Of a DNA stretch of 64,000 bases, positions 58,281-64,000 are shown in pieces. Source of the stretch: Natrinema caseinilyticum (GTDB lineage: Archaea; Halobacteriota; Halobacteria; Halobacteriales; Natrialbaceae); the NCBI RefSeq assembly GCF_024227435.1, contig NZ_CP100445.1:1671369-1735368 (forward strand), in the 5' to 3' direction. The stretch's first letter is position 1. Every line of letters starts with the position of its first letter. The notes below the pieces were generated by a model, which saw only the letters and a program-made list of their open reading frames with translations, was not told the DNA's origin and did not search any database. The position numbers and the translations under genes were made by a program.

Positions 58281-58290
58281 ATTTAAATAC
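58281..58290 (+). promoter_or_regulatory. TATA box of the AddAB-like operon
   Basis: ATTTAAATAC lies about 33-42 bp before ATG 58323 and 18-27 bp before GTG 58308. Transcription would begin near 58310-58312, so the ATG at 58323 is the preferred start. Confidence 0.5.
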
Positions 58291-58322
58291 CAACTCCGCA
58301 ATACTCGGTGACGTATCAATCG

Positions 58323-60590
58323 ATGATCTCGTCGCCGCCCACCCTCGAGGGAACGTGTGTGCTCCTTCCCGCACCGGCACAGAGTACGGACGTGTTCGCG
58401 GCGATCGCGGCGGAGTACGCCGACCTCGTCGACGAGTACGGGCCGCGAAACGTGCTGGTCCTGAAGCGGCATCCGGCGGGCCTCGAGTCGGTATCCGCGG
58501 CGCTGGCCGACGCCGACCGCGAGCGGACCGACGGCGTGGCGCGCTCGCCCCGCGTCGAGTCGCTGCCCGAACACGCCTCGAAGTTCGTCGAGGAGTACGA
58601 TCCGACGCTGTCCCGCCTCGAGTACGAAGAACGGATCGAGCTCATTTCGCTCGTTATCGACGGCGCCAGTCGGACGGTGCCGGCGTACCTCCGAGGCGCC
58701 GCCGACCACGAGAGTTTCGCTCGCGACGTCGGACAACTGTTGCTCGAGGCGACCCGCCAGGGGATTCGTCTCGAGGATCTCGAGGATCCCCACGACTGTC
58801 TGGCCTTCCTGTACGCGATGAACGACCGGTTCCACGCGGAAATCGACGACCGCGGCTACGTCGAGCGGGCGGACGTGATCCCGCAGGCCGTCGCGTTGCT
58901 CGAGGCGGACGCGGACGGACTCCGAAGCCGCACTGCCGCCTCGTTCGACGCCGTCCTCGCCGTCGAGTTCGAGGAGTACCGCGGGCTCGACCGCCGGTAT
59001 CTCGCCGCGCTGACCGACGACGCCGAACTCGTCTGCTTCGGCGAGCGCCACGCCAGCGTCGAGCGAACACGCATCGAACCAGGCGGGGTCGCCGCGACCG
59101 CGAGCGCGGCGGGCCTCGACGTCGAGGTGCGCGAGTCCGACGCGACCGACCGCGGGGAGACCCCGCCGCACCGACCGATAACGGCGTTTCTCGCTACGGG
59201 CCGGTCACCGGACCGGGCGACGGACGCCGAAGACGAAACCGAGCGACCAGTCGAGAACGCCAGGGCCGCCGATCCGATCGGACGGGCCAGACGCATCCAC
59301 ACCGGAACCGCCCGCGAACAGGTCCGTGCGGTCGCCACCGAAATCCAGTCGCTTCGGGACCGCCGCGGCTGGTCCTTCGACGAATTCGCCGTGGCGGTTC
59401 CGCGGATCGAACGGGTCCCACAGACGAGACGACGGCTCCGGGAAACCGGCGTGCCGACCGCCACGATCGGAACCCCCTCGCTCGCGGAAGACCCCGCGGT
59501 GAACGAACTCTACGCGGTCGTCACGATCCAGCGCGAACGCGAGCGCGATGGTAACTGGAGCGCGCGGATCGAGCCCGCAAACCCCGCGGGCGACGCGAGC
59601 GAACCGGTAGAGCGGGCGATGGACCGGCTTCGGACGCGAGTCCCGGCGTTCTCCTCGGCGCTGCTCGAGAAAACCGACGGGGCGAGCGTCCGACGTTCGC
59701 TCGAGCGATGGATCAGCAACACGGATCTGAAGGGGCGTATCGCCCGCGAGGAGGACTGGGTCGACGCTCGCGAACAGTACGAGGGCGTCCGGCGCGTGCT
59801 GGAAATCGCCCAGTTCGTCGAGGAGACGGACCTCGTCGGTCCGGATTGGCAGGGATTACACCGAATGCTGCGCCGGACCATCCAGTACGATGCACCGTAC
59901 GTCCACGCGGTAGAGACCACGCCGCCGACGGGCGGCGTCGCCGTCTGTGCCGTCGACGATCTGAAGTACGACTCGCGGAACGCGGTGTTCCTGCTCGATC
60001 TGATCGACGAGACCTATCCGGGCGAGCAGTTCCTCACGCAGCTCTTTCCGACGGCGTGGCTCCGCGAGATGACGGCGTACCCCGCGGTCACCGACCCGAC
60101 CGTCGACGAGGTCACCGAGACGTTCGAACCGATCGACGCGGCCGCCGTCGGCGACCCGTTCGAGGCCTACCACGCCCAGCGGTCCCGCCGACGGCTCGCG
60201 CTCGGGTCCCGCGCGGCCGAGCGCGTCCTCTACTGTTGCTCGTACGAGCGCGGTGCCGGCGGTCTGCGCCGAACCTACGACCAGTCGCGCTACCTGAAAC
60301 TGATCGAATCGGTCCCCGGATTGGAACTCGAGGACGTCGACGCCCACGCGGACGCGGCGATTCACGGCGAGACGAACGCGCTCGAGGCGCTGCTCGACCA
60401 GCCCCGCGGCGAACTCGAGCGGGTGCTTCGCGAGGCCAGCACCGGCGGAGCGGCCGACCTCGGCGAGACGGAGGGGCTGTTCGAGGAAATCGCGGTCGTC
60501 CTCGAAGACGGCGACGTCGACGAAGAACTCGTCGAGGCGGTCCGCTCGCAGTTCGAGTTCGCCGCGGGCGAGGTGGTACGCGATGGCTGA
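58323..60590 (+). CDS. AddB/RecC-like protein, first gene of a DNA-end processing operon
   Basis: The product is 755 residues from ATG 58323. It has the layout of an AddB-type SF1 helicase fold: a nucleotide-binding-like N-terminus (CVLLPAPAQSTDVFAAIAAEY), SRLEYEERIELISLVIDG, VLAVEFEEYRGLDRRYLAAL (helicase-motif-II position), FDEFAVAVPRIERVPQTRRRLRETGVPT (motif IV-like) and KYDSRNAVFLLDLIDETYPGE (motif V-like). Where AddB has GxxxxGKT, this protein reads LLPAPAQST, so Walker A is absent and ATPase activity unlikely; it may be a RecC-like scaffold. It shares 8 nt with the next gene. Similarity is by pattern only; another helicase-like family is possible. Confidence 0.7.
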   Translation: MISSPPTLEGTCVLLPAPAQSTDVFAAIAAEYADLVDEYGPRNVLVLKRHPAGLESVSAALADADRERTDGVARSPRVESLPEHASKFVEEYDPTLSRLEYEERIELISLVIDGASRTVPAYLRGAADHESFARDVGQLLLEATRQGIRLEDLEDPHDCLAFLYAMNDRFHAEIDDRGYVERADVIPQAVALLEADADGLRSRTAASFDAVLAVEFEEYRGLDRRYLAALTDDAELVCFGERHASVERTRIEPGGVAATASAAGLDVEVRESDATDRGETPPHRPITAFLATGRSPDRATDAEDETERPVENARAADPIGRARRIHTGTAREQVRAVATEIQSLRDRRGWSFDEFAVAVPRIERVPQTRRRLRETGVPTATIGTPSLAEDPAVNELYAVVTIQRERERDGNWSARIEPANPAGDASEPVERAMDRLRTRVPAFSSALLEKTDGASVRRSLERWISNTDLKGRIAREEDWVDAREQYEGVRRVLEIAQFVEETDLVGPDWQGLHRMLRRTIQYDAPYVHAVETTPPTGGVAVCAVDDLKYDSRNAVFLLDLIDETYPGEQFLTQLFPTAWLREMTAYPAVTDPTVDEVTETFEPIDAAAVGDPFEAYHAQRSRRRLALGSRAAERVLYCCSYERGAGGLRRTYDQSRYLKLIESVPGLELEDVDAHADAAIHGETNALEALLDQPRGELERVLREASTGGAADLGETEGLFEEIAVVLEDGDVDEELVEAVRSQFEFAAGEVVRDG

Positions 60591-61647
60591 GGCCGACTCG
60601 AGCGTCGCGTCGCTCTCCGTCGACGGGATCCGGACCGCCCTGCACTGCCCTCGTCGGTACGAGTTCGCCCACGTCGACGGACTCGAGGGCCGTGACGACG
60701 AGGGGACGGTCGAAGAGCGCGTCGATCTGTTGCGAACCGCGCTCTGTGATGGGCTCCGAAGCGGCGAAACGAATCGCGAGGGCCTCGAGACCGTCGCCCG
60801 CGACCGACTCGCGAGCCTCTGGTCGGATCACGACGAGCGCTTCCACTCCGTCGCCCAGCGACGCCACGAACGGCGCGTCCTCGAGGCGACGGTCGACGCC
60901 TACGTCCACCACGTGGGGACCGACCACGCCGCGGGAATCGAGCGATTGGCCGCCGCGACACCCCGCGACGAACTGACGGGGCCGGGGCTGTCGCTCTCGA
61001 GCACGATCGACCTGACGGAACCGGGGGAGACAGCGCGGACCACGGAAACGGACCCTGCAGCGGAGACGGTGACGATAGACGCGACGGTCGACTACGTCAC
61101 GAGCGACGGGTCGTCGATCGTCGGCGTCCGGTTCGTCCCCACGCTCGCGCCGCTCGGACACCTCCGCTACCGGTCCGACTGGGACGGTGACGTCGCGACC
61201 CGCTTTACCGACCACTTCGCGGGCGAGACGGACGTCTTCGAACCGGACCCGGTGGGAGCGCTCTTCGAGACTGCCGTCGTCCTCGACGGACTGCGCGGCT
61301 TCCGCGAGCGACACGACCTCGCCGATCGCACCTGTCGATACGTCCAGGTTCCGCTGGCCGACCGATCCACGTTGTCGGTGAACTGGATCCAGAACGCGGT
61401 CGAGACGAGCCTCGAGGTCGTCGATCTGACCGACGTCTACGTCGACCACCACACGTTCGGCATGACCCACGACCATCGAAACGAAACCGTCGACAGTCGG
61501 CTCGCATCGGTCGCGGCCACCCTCGTCTCGGAGTCGTTCGATCCCGCCGGGCGGTGGGCGGAGATCGAAGCGAACGCCTGTCCGAACTGCGGCTACACCG
61601 TCTGCTGTCAGGAGTACCTCGCACGGGAGGTTCGCTTCGATGGCTGA
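60583..61647 (+). CDS. Cas4/AddB-like Fe-S PD-(D/E)XK protein, possibly nuclease-dead
   Basis: The 354-residue protein starts MAEADSS and has SLSVDGIRTALHCPRRYEFAHVDGLEG, like the N-terminus of RecB-family Cas4/AddB nucleases with the first Fe-S cysteine. The last cysteines lie in ACPNCGYTVCCQEYLAREV, completing a 4Fe-4S pattern. Between, the strand TIDATVDYVTSDGSSIVGVRFV should carry the D...(D/E)xK site, but it reads VGVR instead of (D/E)xK, so the metal-binding catalytic residues look lost. It may act as a structural Fe-S clamp. It overlaps the genes before and after by 8 nt each, so the three are translated together. Confidence 0.78.
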   Translation: MAEADSSVASLSVDGIRTALHCPRRYEFAHVDGLEGRDDEGTVEERVDLLRTALCDGLRSGETNREGLETVARDRLASLWSDHDERFHSVAQRRHERRVLEATVDAYVHHVGTDHAAGIERLAAATPRDELTGPGLSLSSTIDLTEPGETARTTETDPAAETVTIDATVDYVTSDGSSIVGVRFVPTLAPLGHLRYRSDWDGDVATRFTDHFAGETDVFEPDPVGALFETAVVLDGLRGFRERHDLADRTCRYVQVPLADRSTLSVNWIQNAVETSLEVVDLTDVYVDHHTFGMTHDHRNETVDSRLASVAATLVSESFDPAGRWAEIEANACPNCGYTVCCQEYLAREVRFDG

Positions 61648-64000
61648 GGACTCACGACCGGACCGCCCCGCCGAGCCGGCGTCCCCGTCCGACGTCGAGC
61701 CCAAGGGAAACCAGCAGGCCGTCATCGACAGCGCCGCGACGTGTACCTCGGTCGACGCGGGTGCCGGAACGGGAAAGACGACGACGATGCTCGTTCGCCT
61801 CGAGCGAGCGATCGACCGGGGCGCGGTCGAGCCGGACGACGTTCTCGTCTTGACGTTCGCGAACGAGGCCGCCGCGAGCATCCGCACGGCGATCACCGAG
61901 CGACTCGACCCCGACGACGCGGCAGCGATCGACGTCTTCACCTACCACTCGTTCTGTTACCGGCTCGTCCGCGAGTACGCGTACTACCTGGGATACTCGC
62001 CGGAATTCGACGTCGTCACCGAGCGAACCCGCCGGCGGATCATCGGACGGCTGCTCGCCGAAACCGACTACGAGTTCGCGGCCGCGGCGACCCGCGACGA
62101 CGGTTCGCCGGCCGACCTCGCCGCGTCGGTCGATCGATTCATTCGGGCGATGAGCCGGGAGAACATCACGCCCGACCAACTACGGGACGGCCTGCCGCCG
62201 GTTCGAACGCTCGAACTGTGCAACGAGTTCGTCCTGTGGCTCGAACGAACCGCGGCGGAGGAACTGTCGTTCGACAACGAGGCGCTCCGGTACTTCAATC
62301 GGGACGAACACGTAGACGGCGCCCGGGAGTCGCTGGTCGACTACGGCAAACTCATCTCGTACTGCCGGGAGAAGATCGCCGAGGCGCCGGCGGCCTTCCG
62401 CGACGAGGCGGTGGTTCGCGACGTGGATCGCTACCTCAGAGTCCTGCAACAGTGCGTCACGAACACCATCGAGGCGCTCACGCTCGAGGACCCGAGCACG
62501 AAGCACCTGCCGCGGGCGCTGTTCGGCAACGAAATCTGGGGACGGGCCACGAACAGAATCGAACAGACCCCGTTCGGCCGCCTGAAACAGTACGTCGAGT
62601 TCCTCCGGCTGGCACGTCACTACGCCGACGTCTACGCTGACTACCACGAGCACCTCGCGGCCGAGCGGACGATGGACTTCGACGAACTGGTGCGGACGGC
62701 GACCGAACTACTGGCGGACGACTCGATCGCGGACGAGATCACCGGCCAGTGGACGCAGGTCTACTGCGACGAATTCCAGGACACCGACAGGACGCAGTTC
62801 GCACTGCTCACTCGACTCACGGACGGCCGCGACCGGCCGGATCTGCTCGCGATCGGCGACAAGGATCAGGCGATATACGGCTGGCGCGGCACCGACCGCG
62901 AGGGACTGGATAGACTGGCCGACGCCTCCGACGACCACGAAGCGATCGAACTCGAGCTCAACTTTCGCTCGAGACAGGAGATTCTCGACCTGACGAACGG
63001 GTGTGATTACGGACCCCAGGCCTCGAAGACGCTTCGCGAGGACGGGCGGACGCCCGGAACGTACGACGAGGACGAGCCGCCGGACCGCGTGGTCAAGATC
63101 GAAAGCGAGGGGGTGGCTCAGTCGACGGCCGAACAGGTGGCGACGACTGTCTCACGGCTGTTGAACGGCGCAGCCGAGAACGTTCCTCGGCGGTCGCTGG
63201 GCGATATCGCCGTCATCGTCCGGACAAACCGTCACGCACAGACGATCGCGGACGAACTCCGGGAACTGCAGATACCCCACGAGATATCCGGCTCGCCGCG
63301 GGGAGAGATTTCCCCGGGGATGCAGACGGTCCTCTCGTACCTCCGGGTGCTCGTCGACCCGGACGCCGATGCACACCTCCGGCGCGTGCTCCTCTACCGC
63401 TACCGGCTCACCGAAGGCGATCTGCGGACGCTTCACGCGCGGGACGGCTCGCTGTACGAGGCAGTGATGAACGCGGAGACGACGACGGGCGAAGCGACCG
63501 AGGCGGACGGACGGCCGGATCGACTCGAGCGGCCGGACAGCGTCGAGCGGGCTCGAGACCACCTCGCTGCGCTCGAGCGGTTCCGGGACGTCTACCCGCT
63601 CTCGGGGTTCGTCCGCCGGTTCCGAGAGCTCACTCGAATCGAGTGGTTCTGCTCGAGCGAGGAACGGGCCGAATTCGACCGCCTCGAGCGATTCGTCGAG
63701 GCGTACGATTCCGATGGCGTCGTCCAGTCGCTCTCGACGGAGTTCGTCGAGGCGCTCGCACAGACGCTGCGAAGCGGCGGGAGCGACCGCACCCGCGGGA
63801 CCCGATCCGCCGACAGCGTCGACGTCATGACGGTCCACCAGGCCAAGGGCCTCGAGTTCGACACCGTCCTCGTTCCATACCTCTCCGACGAGGAGTGGTG
63901 CGTCGACGGGGATTACGTCGAGCGAGCGCGCTACGGGCTGTTAGCCGCCACGCTCGACGAGGACGTCACGTCTCCGCTGCTCGCCGATCTGTCCGCCGAG
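61640..64000 (+). CDS. UvrD/AddA-type SF1 DNA helicase, 3' truncated by window
   Basis: The frame starts at ATG 61640 (8 nt inside the previous gene) and is still open at the window end after 787 codons. Helicase motifs are intact: GAGTGKTTTM (motif I, about 41-50), VLVLTFANEAA (Ia), YCDEFQDTDRTQ (II, about 375), GDKDQAIYGWRG (III), ELNFRSRQEI (IV) and VMTVHQAKGLEFDTVL (V). The motif-II region DFDELVRTATELL resembles AddA/UvrD. It would unwind DNA from ends with 3'-5' polarity. Whether a C-terminal RecB-type nuclease domain follows cannot be seen. It is the motor of the three-gene operon. Confidence 0.93.
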   Translation, partial: MAEDSRPDRPAEPASPSDVEPKGNQQAVIDSAATCTSVDAGAGTGKTTTMLVRLERAIDRGAVEPDDVLVLTFANEAAASIRTAITERLDPDDAAAIDVFTYHSFCYRLVREYAYYLGYSPEFDVVTERTRRRIIGRLLAETDYEFAAAATRDDGSPADLAASVDRFIRAMSRENITPDQLRDGLPPVRTLELCNEFVLWLERTAAEELSFDNEALRYFNRDEHVDGARESLVDYGKLISYCREKIAEAPAAFRDEAVVRDVDRYLRVLQQCVTNTIEALTLEDPSTKHLPRALFGNEIWGRATNRIEQTPFGRLKQYVEFLRLARHYADVYADYHEHLAAERTMDFDELVRTATELLADDSIADEITGQWTQVYCDEFQDTDRTQFALLTRLTDGRDRPDLLAIGDKDQAIYGWRGTDREGLDRLADASDDHEAIELELNFRSRQEILDLTNGCDYGPQASKTLREDGRTPGTYDEDEPPDRVVKIESEGVAQSTAEQVATTVSRLLNGAAENVPRRSLGDIAVIVRTNRHAQTIADELRELQIPHEISGSPRGEISPGMQTVLSYLRVLVDPDADAHLRRVLLYRYRLTEGDLRTLHARDGSLYEAVMNAETTTGEATEADGRPDRLERPDSVERARDHLAALERFRDVYPLSGFVRRFRELTRIEWFCSSEERAEFDRLERFVEAYDSDGVVQSLSTEFVEALAQTLRSGGSDRTRGTRSADSVDVMTVHQAKGLEFDTVLVPYLSDEEWCVDGDYVERARYGLLAATLDEDVTSPLLADLSAE

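Follow-up and report, generated by a model that had tools for sequence, protein, structure and literature searches.

A three-gene operon in Natrinema caseinilyticum

The window that we analyzed is a stretch of 64,000 nucleotides from the 4.77-Mb genome of Natrinema caseinilyticum. Reading its sequence, we found three genes, all on the + strand and at the place given in a preliminary description of this DNA: P1 (58323..60590; 755 aa), P2 (60583..61647; 354 aa) and P3 (61640..64000). P3 continues past the window end to the window-equivalent position 65383 (L002:4009-7752; 1247 aa overall), and its 3' remainder was taken from the same genome. The same 8-bp overlap, ATGGCTGA, joins P1 to P2 at 60583-60590 and P2 to P3 at 61640-61647. 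A TATA-like box, TTTAAATA (58282..58289, + strand), lies 41 bp 5' of the ATG of P1, for which an alternative GTG start at 58308 is possible; to judge by its position, this box is probably the single promoter of the operon. The motifs of the three proteins were then counted across a survey set of 125 distinct loci of Halobacteria.

The first protein, P1, did not match any family of Pfam or NCBIfam. The Walker A motif, GxxxxGK[S/T], is absent from the window P1 over its entire length and from 125 of 125 homologues, and its motif II region reads VEFEE(F/Y), as against CDEFQD in P3. A profile built from 26 homologues and searched against the PDB presented Bacillus subtilis AddB as its best match (3u44_B; E = 2.1e-8), followed by UvrD1 and AdnA. 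The AlphaFold2 model of P1 (pLDDT 80) has a complete UvrD-type helicase fold, for which Foldseek returned UvrD, PcrA and AddB with E-values of about 1e-20 to 1e-22 (4.4e-21 for AddB 4cej_B). Judging from these motifs, P1 is a dead SF1A helicase, a putative scaffold of the AddB/RecC type; the corresponding helicase domains of AddB and RecC are likewise dead (PMC4824097).

The second protein, P2, appears to be an AddB-type Fe-S nuclease domain encoded as a separate protein whose catalytic site has been lost. It is matched by PF12705 (PDDEXK_1) above the curated cut-off (E = 1.8e-5), and the top PDB fold match of its AlphaFold2 model (pLDDT 87.8) is AddB 4cej_B (probability 1.00), ahead of weaker matches to RecE, Cas4, AddA and RecC. 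Searching P2 profiles against the PDB by sequence gave no real match; weak hits to lysozyme and channel proteins were judged to be due to chance. The four predicted Fe-S ligands are all retained, namely Cys22 (60646..60648, + strand) and Cys333, Cys336 and Cys342 (61579..61608, + strand), and the window P2 contains no (D/E)xK. The preliminary description had recognized the missing Walker A of P1 and the cysteine frame of P2, both of which we recovered, and had read VGVR where (D/E)xK is expected. The site is indeed lost, but this register was slightly off, because active relatives and two transitional copies (L117 and L124, reading DYR or EYR for DYK) align D-Y-K with Arg183-Phe184-Val185 (61129..61137, + strand). 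On the same strand, Arg51 (60733..60735) occupies the position of the motif-I His, Glu229 (61267..61269) replaces the motif Gln and Asp170 (61090..61092) is the sole retained acid of the metal site. The opposite charges of these conserved, charge-swapped residues (R51, D170, R183 and E229; 60733-61269) suggest that they likely form a salt-bridge cluster in place of the metal.

The third protein, P3, holds every SF1A motif of a UvrD-type helicase, as had been reported. The preliminary description envisaged a machine whose two helper subunits are structural and which has no nuclease, unless one lay in the C-terminus of the helicase. Such a domain is found past the window end: P3 carries an intact PD-(D/E)XK nuclease (H1041, D1126, D1140-x-K1142, Q1155 and Y1159) with the Fe-S cysteines C991, C1222, C1225 and C1232, which rules out a nuclease-free machine. 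Helicase motifs and nuclease residues are invariant in 17 diverse copies of P3. In the survey set, the catalytic residues are present in 119-120 of 125 copies, and the exceptions are nearly all truncated, with few copies departing at a single residue. The nuclease alone gave no match by phmmer; the P3 profile matches AdnB and AdnA strongly.

Intact and ruined P2 across Halobacteria

The P1-P2-P3 series is unbroken in 135 of 135 loci and the gene order is constant in every locus read. P1 was found in 50 of the 61 genomes sampled from the family of the window organism and in 58 of the 195 sampled from its order. The named organisms with P1 are Halobacteria without exception, and a search of phages and viral contigs for P1 yielded none. 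Because each of the operon features is conserved across the clade, they are not due to chance.

Across the 125 distinct loci, the P2 site is intact in 51 and ruined in 74. Intact copies present the His, the Asp, D-Y-K, the Gln, the Tyr and the four cysteines, with one exception at the His and one at a single Cys (Cys22 is kept in 51/51). In the ruined copies, the His is replaced by Arg in 70, the second Asp by Arg in 58, the Lys by Val in 63, the Gln by Glu in 57 and the Tyr by Val in 54, while the first Asp (74/74), Cys22 (74/74) and all four cysteines (73 of 73 complete copies) are kept. The loss noticed in the window is therefore conserved across a whole haloarchaeal clade. The preliminary description had further proposed an AddB split into two structural parts. 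P1 and P2 do match the two halves of AddB and their catalytic residues are lost clade-wide, but P2 is intact in the sister clade, and its inactivity is thus not inherent in the design of the operon.

In the tree of P1 and P3, the operons with intact P2 form one group, and in the trees that include outgroups the operons with ruined P2 form one clade for both P1 and P3. A single ancient inactivation of P2 would therefore suffice. The intact state is likely ancestral, since it is common to AddB and P3. These paired active and dead clades constitute a natural experiment on why scaffolds of the RecC type drop catalysis and retain the Fe-S fold. In one genome of the window's genus (G022, locus L084), a different, distantly related nuclease-dead operon replaces the usual version.

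Conservation of Asp170 and of the replaced positions R51, R183 and E229 might indicate that P2 still cuts DNA through other residues, for instance Asp170 with a non-canonical site. However, PD-(D/E)XK cleavage requires an acid and a Lys, and the His, the second Asp/Glu, the Lys, the Gln and the Tyr are lost in nearly every dead copy; the putative R51/R183/D170/E229 salt-bridge cluster in place of the metal would also account for this conservation. We therefore regard residual cutting by P2 as very unlikely.

Dead P2 is under purifying selection in Natrinema, although weaker than that acting on active P2: within the genus, dN/dS is 0.27 for dead P2, 0.20 for P1, 0.19 for P3 and 0.09 for active P2. 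This value and the cysteines retained in 73/73 copies rule out a pseudogene. That P2 evolves faster than P1 and P3 could also reflect a simple decay toward loss, but this constraint, the conserved cysteines, the single old loss and the presence of the gene in all complete loci of the whole family make such a decay highly improbable. For bacterial AddAB, it has been reported that broken DNA cannot be bound without the Fe-S cluster (Yeeles 2009, cited in both PMC4824097 and PMC8514734). This provides a reason to retain the cysteines of P2 without cutting.

The two clades also differ in P3. In the active clade, 141-144 residues separate its helicase from its nuclease; in the main dead clade this tether is longer, at 172-200 residues, and in minor dead lineages it has 139-169, so that the trend is weak there. 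For the other spans, the medians of dead and active operons are no more than about 10 apart. RecBCD carries its single nuclease on a mobile linker (PMC5030088). The longer tether of P3 may serve one nuclease that has to reach two strands, although this is a correlation only.

Relation to known helicase-nucleases and origin of P1 and P2

The operon resembles the AddAB of bacteria and methanogens in having adjacent genes, one SF1A motor with a C-terminal nuclease and a partner that combines a dead helicase with a Fe-S nuclease fold of the AddB type. In contrast, AddB is one chain, which is split here into P1 and P2 in every halobacterial locus read, and the two nucleases of AddAB are active, whereas P2 is dead in the window's clade and active in the sister clade. 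The nuclease of AddA also lacks Fe-S cysteines (as checked in a methanogen AddA), whereas that of P3 has four. Relative to the NCBIfam cut-offs for AddA and AddB, P3, tested without its C-terminus, scored 124 bits versus 707.65 and neither P1 nor P2 matched. With RecBCD the operon shares, by its motifs, one nuclease tethered to the motor subunit and a dead RecC-like scaffold, but this scaffold is made of two proteins and retains the Fe-S cysteines, and a RecD-like ORF was found neither in the operon nor among the neighboring ORFs that we read. Mycobacterial AdnAB likewise combines a UvrD-like motor with a nuclease, but AdnA and AdnB each fuse helicase and nuclease, whereas P1 and P2 are separate. 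Finally, UvrD-Cas4 fusions resemble P3 in joining a UvrD helicase to a C-terminal Cas4-like Fe-S nuclease with four cysteines, but the published description (PMC5704561) is of stand-alone proteins associated with restriction-modification, with no accompanying P1 and P2.

P1 and P2 together look like an AddB cut in two. Some methanogen-class genomes of the same phylum encode an ordinary two-gene AddAB with a single-chain AddB; at loci L223-L227, this AddB lacks Walker A and its Fe-S nuclease is intact. P1 scores 82 bits against UvrD-Cas4 fusions versus 43 bits against methanogen AddB, and P2 also scores higher against methanogen UvrD-Cas4 fusions than against single-chain AddB. Because the fusion scores exceed the AddB scores, the descent of P1 from AddB is unsure. 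P1 and P2 could instead derive from a duplicated UvrD-Cas4 fusion similar to P3, which has the same Fe-S nuclease as these fusions, and the likeness to AddAB would then be convergent, with an origin similar to that of AdnAB. Conversely, the best PDB matches of both proteins are AddB, and P1 groups with AddB in the helicase tree, although on long branches flagged by the program. (The nuclease tree wrongly took in the neighboring ORFs L222 and L228 as fusions, which was corrected in the helicase tree.) Since these long branches prevent a firm choice, we give the duplication origin serious weight, somewhat below even; it is compatible with the functional explanation that we favor.

Genomic neighborhoods and proposed function

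These results are best read as describing an AddAB-like complex for end processing that is split and that has, on one occasion, turned RecBC-like. We consider it probable that the products of the three genes form an AddAB/RecBCD-type complex with a single motor and a single nuclease, in which P1 and P2 constitute the scaffold and P2 was inactivated in one ancient event. The assembly of P1, P2 and P3 into one complex is suggested by the conserved operon. P3 would translocate 3'->5' and cut the unwound strands with the Fe-S nuclease tethered at its C-terminus, while P1 and P2 would jointly be equivalent to RecC or to a dead AddB. P1 would guide a strand, and may scan it, and P2, through its Fe-S fold, would hold on to the broken DNA end and the path of the strand. 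The ancestor would have carried a second active nuclease in P2, whose inactivation would have led to the present RecBC-like form. In Natrinema, the complex would probably act next to HerA-NurA, either to repair chromosomal breaks or to clear DNA; NurA is encoded in the same genome, and the complex would therefore not be the sole such enzyme. End resection has been credited to Mre11-Rad50 in haloarchaea and to HerA-NurA elsewhere in archaea (PMC7776575). A conserved AddAB/RecBC-like complex would, if true, add another route of end resection in haloarchaea.

The surroundings of the dead operon are conserved, chromosomal and of the housekeeping type: a CBS protein, uvrA, folC/folP and prolyl-tRNA synthetase (the latter names were read from sequence). 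The intact operon presents a patchy distribution across several families, 16 plasmids carry one, and it often lies in defence islands, where its neighbors include a cluster of BREX-5 and methyltransferase genes, a pair resembling Mre11 and Rad50, and Mrr-type, methylase and restriction genes. Two of these plasmid copies illustrate such contexts: in Natrinema zhouii, an Mre11-like exonuclease and a large AAA ATPase lie directly 5' of the sister operon (L231:4230-8475), and in a Haloplanus plasmid the operon lies beside a BREX-5 pglZ, several DNA methyltransferases and a restriction endonuclease (L233:1-7862). RecBCD itself performs both antiviral/anti-plasmid and repair work. The chromosomal nuclease-dead operon could accordingly still be an antiviral or anti-plasmid machine, as its active sisters with BREX-5, restriction genes, pAgo, PLD and plasmids suggest, and not a repair enzyme. 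We consider this unlikely, because defence neighbors were found in 0/49 dead loci, which present the conserved chromosomal genes instead.

A pAgo gene was found in 10 of 32 neighborhoods of intact operons versus 0 of 49 dead ones (Fisher test, P = 3e-5, kinship ignored), its identity being backed by Piwi and PADLOC models. In 7 of these 10, the series ago-PLD-P1-P2-P3 is uninterrupted. The ago-PLD pairs beside the intact operon are APAP systems. According to the available text of the paper describing them, these haloarchaeal pAgo-PLD systems restrict plasmids and a virus, and 'a helicase-encoding gene' is mentioned nearby (PMC11442185). The active sister operon thus resembles APAP in often having ago and PLD 5' of P1-P2-P3, but the same available text describes no three-subunit helicase-nuclease, and the window operon is without pAgo. 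The proteins that a survey of pAgos recorded from their operons already included UvrD helicases, Cas4 nucleases and PLD proteins (PMC6299218), and the production of pAgo guides is shaped by RecBCD (PMC10269773). Our search of open-access papers on archaeal AddAB did not find this operon. That a helicase occurs near pAgo-PLD operons of haloarchaea was already known. In the open-access papers that we read, this helicase was not identified with the present complex, and the sister lineage with a dead nuclease was not described.

These associations allow a tentative scenario, which we rate as possible but doubtful. A mobile split-AddAB module with two active Fe-S nucleases would form, together with pAgo and PLD, a five-gene defence operon in which its role, comparable to that of RecBCD toward pAgos, is to feed or clear Ago targets. 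The chromosomal copy of Natrialbaceae would have been domesticated: having lost one nuclease, it would have turned into a repair enzyme of the RecBC type, and the transition from AddAB to RecBCD would have been repeated in archaea. The pAgo-linked sister allows a direct test of the cooperation of pAgo with an adjacent break-processing enzyme. At loci L198, L202, L206, L208, L212, L214 and L234, we observed a recurrent order of genes: a divergent AAA ATPase, a pAgo of ~890 aa, a PLD protein of ~706 aa, P1, an intact P2 and P3.
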